DNA of 64,000 nt, from assembly GCF_004145405.1 (NCBI RefSeq), contig NZ_SELQ01000003.1, forward strand, positions 310,001 to 374,000, read 5' to 3'. The position numbers were made by a program, and so were the translations under genes. This document shows positions 8,749 to 43,084 of the stretch, in pieces; position 1 is the stretch's first letter, and each line of letters starts with the position of its first letter. The notes under the pieces were generated by a model. The model made no database searches. It saw only the letters and a list, made by a program, of their open reading frames with translations, and was not told where the DNA came from. The DNA comes from Salipiger sp. IMCC34102. GTDB lineage: Bacteria; Pseudomonadota; Alphaproteobacteria; Rhodobacterales; Rhodobacteraceae.

Positions 8749-8768
8749 AAACAATTTTCTCTATACCG

Positions 8769-8784
8769 ATAACGGGTCATTAAC
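8769..8784 (+). promoter_or_regulatory. CtrA-type box in the ctrA promoter
   Basis: ATAA, seven bases (CGGGTCA), TTAAC: one mismatch to TTAA-N7-TTAAC. The site lies 42 bases before the ctrA start codon in an A+T-rich gap between sciP and ctrA. The position suits autoregulation, which is known for ctrA in Caulobacter; here it is inference. Confidence 0.55.
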
Positions 8785-9540: not shown

Positions 9541-14054
<4,514 letters not shown>

Positions 14055-14058
14055 CCCG

Positions 14059-14097
14059 GTTCGTTCCATTTTGTTCCCCTTTGTTCTCATAAAGTTC
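14059..14097 (+). promoter_or_regulatory. Cluster of GTTC repeats containing a perfect alphaproteobacterial LexA-type site
   Basis: GTTC occurs at 14059, 14063, 14073, 14083 and 14094. The last two form GTTC-N7-GTTC exactly (14083-14097, spacer TCATAAA), the SOS box described for Rhodobacter and other alphaproteobacteria. The earlier copies are spaced ten bases apart and do not fit the consensus alone. The cluster sits between the recG stop and a 40-codon gene. LexA binding is inference. Confidence 0.55.
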
Positions 14098-14113
14098 TTT
14101 ACAGGTCGTTAAC
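14098..14113 (+). promoter_or_regulatory. CtrA-type box abutting the LexA-type site
   Basis: TTTA, seven bases (CAGGTCG), TTAAC: one mismatch to TTAA-N7-TTAAC. It begins at the base after the GTTC-N7-GTTC element and ends 44 bases before the start codon of the small membrane protein gene. Function is inferred from pattern and position. Confidence 0.45.
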
Positions 14114-14157
14114 CTTATGGAACAAACAGGCAACGCAAGACGGAACAGGAGGCCGCC

Positions 14158-14280
14158 ATGAGCAAGCAGATCACCGCAGCACTCGTCAGAGACCGCAGCA
14201 CGATCCTGTCGGATGCCCTTGGCCTCGCCTCGCTGGCCGTCATGTTGTTCGTCGGATTGTCCTTGCCCGGACTGGTCTGA
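14158..14280 (+). CDS. Small single-span membrane protein, possibly SOS/CtrA-controlled
   Basis: 40 residues: a short polar start (MSKQITAALVRDRSTILSDA) and one hydrophobic segment near 21-38 (LGLASLAVMLFVGLSL), ending PGLV. A strong ribosome site AGGAGG lies six bases before the ATG. The gene stands alone between recG and a good terminator. Its promoter region holds a perfect GTTC-N7-GTTC and an adjoining CtrA-like box. I recognise the general look of small conserved Rhodobacteraceae proteins but no named family. By analogy, Caulobacter has LexA-controlled tiny membrane proteins such as SidA that inhibit division; a similar role here is a hypothesis, not seen in the sequence. Confidence 0.7.
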   Translation: MSKQITAALVRDRSTILSDALGLASLAVMLFVGLSLPGLV

Positions 14281-14400
14281 CTGCCTCGCATCCGCAAGGT
14301 TCGCGATGCCCGTCCCACCGGGCTCGCCTGACCTGCCTGTCCTGATGCGCCGCGCGGGTTGCCCGCCCCGCGGCCGCCTTGCGGATGCACCACTTCGCCG

Positions 14401-14432
14401 CCGCCGCTGTCCTCAGCGTGCGGCGGTTTTTT
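14401..14432 (+). terminator. Rho-independent terminator after the small membrane protein gene
   Basis: CCGCCGC at 14401-14407 pairs with GCGGCGG at 14420-14426, an inner CTG/CAG pair extends the hairpin, and six T follow at 14427-14432. The convergent Fe-S scaffold gene ends at the next base. Confidence 0.85.
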
Positions 14433-42962: not shown

Positions 42963-42974
42963 ATTATGTCAATT

Positions 42975-42989
42975 TTAACAGTATGTTAA
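42975..42989 (-). promoter_or_regulatory. Perfect TTAA-N7-TTAA CtrA-type box
   Basis: TTAA at 42975-42978, seven bases (CAGTATG), TTAA at 42986-42989. The CtrA consensus is TTAA-N7-TTAAC. The only leftward gene it can serve is the membrane coiled-coil protein gene (start 42736); no rightward gene follows for 2.9 kb. Binding is inferred from pattern. Confidence 0.6.
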
Positions 42990-43084
42990 GACACGTTTCT
43001 GCAGGCACCTCATGGCGCGCGCGGCGGTTGAGAGACCGGAAACGGGCCGGTCGGTGACCCGCTTTCGGTTGCAGGGATGCGCCG

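Follow-up and report, generated by a model that had tools for sequence, protein, structure and literature searches.

Small SOS membrane peptides that act on FtsW/I/N, SidA and YneA among them, are division inhibitors according to the available text of two reports (PMC4211646, PMC13396833). SidA is a 29-aa SOS-induced inner-membrane inhibitor that acts on FtsW (PMC4211646), the span of YneA meets FtsW, and models, which are not of high confidence, put SidA, SosA and ChiZ on FtsW as well (PMC13396833). Here we describe a peptide gene that bears comparison with these systems, found in a 64-kb stretch of DNA that we refer to as the window. A first-pass annotation of the window had drawn attention to a 40-codon gene downstream of recG, preceded by a cluster of GTTC repeats and by a LexA-type and a CtrA-type site. 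All the positions it named—in the GTTC array, at the CtrA-type site and for the 40-codon ORF—agree with our check of the sequence, in which recG ends at 14054, upstream of the peptide gene. The features of the locus are as follows.

14059, 14063, 14073, 14083 and 14094, forward strand: GTTC copies, five within 39 nt
14073 to 14097, forward strand: GTTC-N6-GTTC-N7-GTTC array with conserved phases; the extra GTTC copies are those at 14059 and 14063
14083 to 14097, forward strand: LexA-type box A, GTTC-N7-GTTC, part of the array
14098 to 14103, forward strand: probable -35 element TTTACA, from base coupling
14098 to 14113, forward strand: CtrA-type site TTTA-N7-TTAAC, one mismatch from TTAA-N7-TTAAC
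14118 to 14126, forward strand: probable extended -10, TG-N-AACAAA, placed by its position relative to 14098 to 14103 and overlapping box B
14120 to 14134, forward strand: LexA-type box B, GAAC-N7-CAAC, in the orientation opposite to box A
14147 to 14152, forward strand: ribosome-binding site AGGAGG, read from the window sequence
14158 to 14280, forward strand: gene for a 40-aa single-span membrane peptide, supported by profile matches, dN/dS and invariant residues
14397 to 14432, forward strand: probable terminator, a hairpin followed by six T, with a fold of -26.3 kcal/mol and one bulged base

A scan for plain -35/-10 and terminator consensus reported nothing at this locus, the hairpin at 14397 to 14432 included; the -10 bears little resemblance to TATAAT, and there is a bulge in the stem of the terminator. 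The crowding of GTTC, previously described as far above expectation, is indeed so. Of 100 sequences of 64 kb simulated with the window's dinucleotide composition, five reached four copies in their densest 39 nt and none reached five, and we reject chance as an explanation of the array. The motif GTTC-N7-GTTC by itself shows no excess in the window (two seen vs 1.8 expected), so that only the array is unusual there and conservation must decide.

The first finding of this study is that a peptide behind a predicted DNA-damage switch is encoded in most of the Rhodobacteraceae sampled, nearly always directly after recG. A search with the single sequence gave matches in 200 of the 295 family genomes, while a 35-row profile detected the peptide in 254 of them, and in 226 of the 260 good genomes. 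Profile matches occurred in 5 of 385 genomes drawn across the class, all of them Rhodobacteraceae, the window's own family. In a draw restricted to the order, 139 of 149 genomes were matched, and every match listed is again from this family. Two genera (g23 and g577) account for 7 of the 10 misses. A lexA match is present in 36 of the 41 family genomes that have no profile match, which indicates that the peptide gene is dispensable or has diverged there. The arrangement downstream of recG is kept: recG lies upstream on the same strand in 106 of the 110 loci fetched, the distance to the start codon being mostly 80-200 nt, and a SufU-like gene converging from downstream is detectable in 80 of the 110. 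A scan of genome contigs that used the promoter pattern only found at least 117 loci. Among the 117 matches listed, recG precedes the element on the same strand in 115 (about 545 nt away in two of them), and the peptide is encoded in 115. Three of the four exceptions are truncated: the stretches of L218 and L291 stop 63 and 24 nt past the element, and that of L295 begins 22 nt before it. In a single locus among the matches listed, L309, the peptide is present and recG was not detected in the 4.1 kb upstream. Rhodobacteraceae include marine roseobacters, Rhodobacter and Paracoccus, and one gene with one switch in most sampled genera offers a single candidate for many of them. In the literature, no homolog has been described for Rhodobacteraceae among the matches listed, most subscription papers lying outside the scope of the search. 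The main text of a study of LexA in D. shibae does not mention recG, and the available part of that source names no such peptide gene (PMC6473078).

As to function, the most likely reading, by analogy, is that the peptide pauses division, or another membrane process, during DNA repair. It would be an SOS-induced membrane effector and probably a SidA-like division-checkpoint peptide; division arrest as such is, on balance, what we expect of it, and FtsW is a hypothetical target that we hold with less confidence than the arrest itself. LexA, sitting on two boxes, one upstream of the -35 and the other over the -10 and the start, would silence the gene, and DNA damage would open it through RecA-triggered cleavage of LexA. 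The product would be a 40-aa bitopic inner-membrane peptide with a short N-terminal helix inside, one transmembrane span and a conserved pattern D19-G22-L26-L30-L34-P37. Through that span it would most likely bind a membrane partner and so stall division, in the manner of SidA on FtsW/FtsN. Core-promoter sites of the CtrA or CcrM type would probably link induction to the cell cycle in many lineages. LexA binding and induction, as well as the membrane topology, are predicted from established families.

The second finding is that the promoter is conserved in great detail. An alignment of the element was possible for 109 of the 110 loci (L035 is without it and is excluded from promoter counts), and conservation in relatives thus bears out the LexA-type site that had been proposed. 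The alignment was anchored on the third GTTC followed by G[AGT]AC, with G[AGT]ACA required at the second site, so that the GTTC copies at -11 and -21, the CAAC half-site and the bases in between are independent findings. GTTC occurs at -21 in 96, at -11 in 108 and at 0 in all 109 promoters; GTTC-N7-GTTC is therefore present in 108 of the 109, and many columns are nearly invariant. The distance from the third GTTC to the second site is 27 nt in 98 loci, 26 in 8 and 28 in 3. This second, opposed LexA-type box, at 14120 to 14134 in the window, was absent from the first-pass annotation. Its first half reads GAAC in 108 of the 109 loci and GTAC in one, and 11 nt past GAAC the bases are CAAC in 97, TAAC in 6, GAAC in 3 and AAAC in 3. 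The pattern GTTC-N7-GTTCTT-N20-22-GAACAA is found in 225 of the 295 family genomes and once in the window's own genome. Among the matches listed, no genome has it more than once and none is to a reversed-pattern control.

To dissect the region between the two boxes, we used 187 distinct 27-nt spacers, having excluded 11 of 198 cores with other spacings; the window's own spacer belongs to the 26-nt class and is outside this set. Two of the 187 (L098 and L197) are reverse-strand readings without any of the three site types discussed below, which makes the true denominator 185, and counts are uncorrected for kinship among cores that span different genera and species. When the third base at the position of TTTACA is T, the next two bases are AC in 156 of 156 cores, whereas AC follows in only 11 of 29 when it is G. 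The 16 G-type rows present on a recG tree of 105 loci (105 of the 110) make 13 changes. AC being fixed after T and relaxed after G is what one would expect if TTG were enough for a -35 element, and TTTACA at 14098 to 14103 is thus a probable -35 element. In 183 of the 187 cores TG occupies the place of an extended -10, and box B would then cover the -10 and the start.

This core promoter changes how the CtrA-type site must be viewed. The site exists at 14098 to 14113, as annotated, and its TTAA phase recurs. However, TTTA-N7-TTAA is kept in only 19 of the 110 loci and exact TTAA-N7-TTAA in 1 of 110, and we reject general CtrA control through this site, the first half of which appears better explained as the -35 element. 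TTAA at that phase (TTAA15) is found in 36 of the 187 spacers vs 3.9 expected by column shuffle, and TTAA at any other spacer offset in at most 5. Three observations count against a specific CtrA site: only 7 of the 36 copies of TTAA15 have C as the next base, GTTAA is also seen at other offsets in 14 of the 121 spacers that have neither TTAA15 nor GANTC, and TTAA15 is found in both promoter types (3 of 29 G-type and 33 of 156 TTTAC promoters). The same spacer can hold a third alternative, unseen in the first-pass annotation: GANTC, the CcrM-type site, is present in 30 of the 187 spacers (equivalents of 14103 to 14119) vs 4.1 (sd 2.0) expected, an excess of about seven-fold over 500 column shuffles with a maximum of 12. 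GANTC is never in the same spacer as TTAA15 (Fisher p 0.0016, partly steric). Further downstream, TTAA at offset 48 (TTAA48) is found in 26 of the 187 cores, other downstream offsets reaching at most 3, and is coupled with T at 37 (19 of 26 vs 27 of 161 otherwise, p 1.8e-8). C follows TTAA48 in 18 of the 26, giving TCAA-N7-TTAAC, a second CtrA-type site, and TTAA48 never occurs together with TTAA15 (p 0.005). This second site (about 14130 to 14145 equivalents, as in L024, L041 and L044) overlaps box B and the probable start. Elsewhere in the window there are overlapping one-mismatch CtrA-type sites on both strands at 42964 to 42990, and one at 8768 to 8784 that is readable on both strands.

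It should be kept in mind that TTAA48 and GANTC came to light on inspection of the data, whereas TTAA15 is the site proposed beforehand. On the recG tree of 105 loci, TTAA15 has 22 carriers and 19 changes, GANTC 12 and 12, and TTAA48 16 and 11; these numbers indicate that all three come and go, the gains of TTAA15 being mostly independent and those of GANTC independent as well. All three are missing from 102 of the 187 cores. Among 13 genomes of the family, nine of which come from one genus, GANTC was found near the boxes of neither lexA nor recA (0/13 each), a CtrA-like pair was seen in 0 of 13 lexA and 1 of 13 recA promoters, and GcrA is encoded in 13 of 13. On Caulobacter ctrAP1, the footprint of GcrA extends from -35 to -10 in the available text of one report (PMC3667746). 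Judged by these patterns, CtrA input at the peptide promoter is apparently not general across loci, and a cell-cycle input of either sign is plausible. A more elaborate scheme, which we offer tentatively as a possibility short of an expectation, is a two-input checkpoint in which the peptide would be made only if LexA has been cleaved and the cell-cycle state permits. The LexA logic would be frozen, while the cell-cycle logic would be turning over, each lineage using whichever site it has evolved: one for CtrA, at either of two fixed phases, or a CcrM-methylated GANTC read by GcrA. If true, such a checkpoint would be clade-wide, with a cell-cycle site that is lineage-specific within one core promoter, and the promoter could reveal how DNA-damage and cell-cycle control join and re-wire.

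The recurrence of CtrA- and CcrM-type sites in this promoter also speaks for a different reading, in which the product, induced by the SOS response, regulates a sensor or protease of the membrane, such as the CckA/CtrA phosphorelay or a protease of the FtsH type, and so passes damage on to cell-cycle or gene-transfer-agent control. In D. shibae the predicted targets of LexA overlap with those of CtrA, and in R. capsulatus cckA is acted on by LexA, as stated in the available text of the same study (PMC6473078). However, these sites bear on the promoter and not on the target of the peptide, and the adjoining genes (recG and the SufU-like gene) include no sensor, protease or gene-transfer-agent gene, which leaves this reading doubtful next to a division inhibitor.

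The peptide itself bears on what kind of effector it might be. Hydropathy and charge pattern agree with the single-span membrane protein of 40 codons that had been predicted from the sequence. Per-position conservation was restricted to the 91 of 110 orthologs that are exactly 40 aa long. In these, D19, G22 and L34 are invariant (91/91) and P37 is found in 88 of 91, positions 20-36 hold zero charged residues in 91 of 91, and residues 1-18 have a net charge of about +1. One conserved helix face in the span is suggestive only, since periodicity along the helix is not significant (permutation p 0.06-0.09). Pfam, PHROGs and the PDB gave no confident match to the peptide, nor did NCBIfam when queried with the window's peptide alone. 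Some orthologs are shortened when read from the best-scoring start: L200 and L255 (31 aa each, Paracoccus) and L243 (29 aa, Pararhodobacter). In these three the promoter is the same and the span still has D-x-x-G, while the N-terminal helix is mostly gone.

TisB of E. coli is an SOS-induced single-span peptide, and the size, single span and predicted SOS control of the product here would fit a peptide of the TisB/DinQ kind, depolarising the membrane, lowering potential and ATP and slowing growth. We regard this as improbable. An uncharged span with kept D19, G22, L34 and P37 suggests a specific partner, and linkage to recG in 106 of the 110 loci sets the gene apart from toxin-antitoxin loci that are mobile. 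DinQ is SOS-regulated and depolarises the membrane, and antisense-RNA pairing is a feature of DinQ, in the available text of its description (PMC3567139). Taken together, an uncharged span in which D, G, L and P are fixed, a chromosomal position linked to recG and what may be cell-cycle sites point to a division inhibitor more than to a depolarising peptide.

That the array is read by LexA is the firmest of our predictions. GTTCN7GTTC is the published Caulobacter LexA motif in the available text of one report (PMC12700426). In the 13 family genomes, all lexA promoters and all recA promoters carry GAAC-N7-GAAC (13/13 each), and the N7/N6 triple GTTC array is also upstream of lexA in 5 of the 13. 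Since the peptide gene shares the triple array with lexA, and boxes are present at both lexA and recA, we take the array with high confidence to consist of LexA operators, and LexA control of the peptide gene is almost certain on these grounds. In 10 of the 13 recA promoters there is also an upstream, opposed and degenerate GTTC-N7-GGTC, resembling the two-box layout here. A second recurrent GTTC-N6-GTTC-N7-GTTC sequence, ending GGTTCTGACGC[TC]GTTC, was seen in seven genomes (G295, G006, G298, G300, G301, G302 and G305) and may be a conserved stretch of coding sequence. One might suspect a regulator other than LexA because the N6-spaced extra GTTC and the CAAC half-site depart from plain GTTC-N7-GTTC, and because 8 of the 13 genomes without a lexA match still have the peptide. 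Such a regulator is very unlikely, as lexA itself has the same N7/N6 array in 5 of the 13 genomes and both lexA and recA have the box in all 13. A lexA match is present in 282 of the 295 family genomes, so nearly universal that its co-occurrence with the peptide is uninformative. Two of the genomes with peptide and no lexA match, G069 and G160, are >90% complete, yet lie in hundreds of contigs. Among high-quality genomes, the peptide is missing in 3 of 5 without a lexA match vs 31 of 255 with one, a weak contrast since some of those assemblies are fragmented.

Finally, the reading frame is kept among relatives and is under purifying selection, with a dN/dS of 0.13 over 14 non-overlapping close pairs drawn from 182 ORFs; the ORF is thus very probably translated and selected, and we reject the idea that it is incidental. 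That the conserved unit is instead a small regulatory RNA or leader, as the nearly invariant promoter columns might suggest when set against a mean identity of 55% for the peptide columns, has next to no standing beside this dN/dS, 40 codons in 91 of 110 orthologs and an ATG start in 110 of 110.

Returning to a SidA-like division inhibitor as the preferred reading, its comparison with known systems shows similarities and differences. Like DinQ of E. coli, the peptide is predicted to be an SOS-induced single-span peptide; unlike it, DinQ depolarises the membrane and is under antisense-RNA control, in the available account (PMC3567139). Caulobacter DidA is likewise a small membrane protein induced by DNA damage, but it is SOS-independent and induced by DriD, not by LexA (PMC4211646, in its available text). 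YneA, SosA and ChiZ of Gram-positive bacteria also inhibit division, are induced by the SOS response and have a single span, which is proposed to contact FtsW (PMC13396833, available text). YneA differs in having an extracellular LysM domain, whereas few residues follow the span here. The closest parallel is Caulobacter SidA, also a very small single-span inner-membrane peptide from an alphaproteobacterium under LexA control (here predicted from sequence only). SidA has 29 aa, and some orthologs here have 29-31 aa from the best-scoring start (Pararhodobacter, Paracoccus). This likeness is one of description, and we do not claim membership of the SidA family. The peptide had no match outside Rhodobacteraceae in the draw of 385 genomes from the class. 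Unlike SidA, it is usually 40 aa long, has a conserved D-x-x-G motif, occupies a fixed place after recG and is preceded by two opposed LexA boxes.
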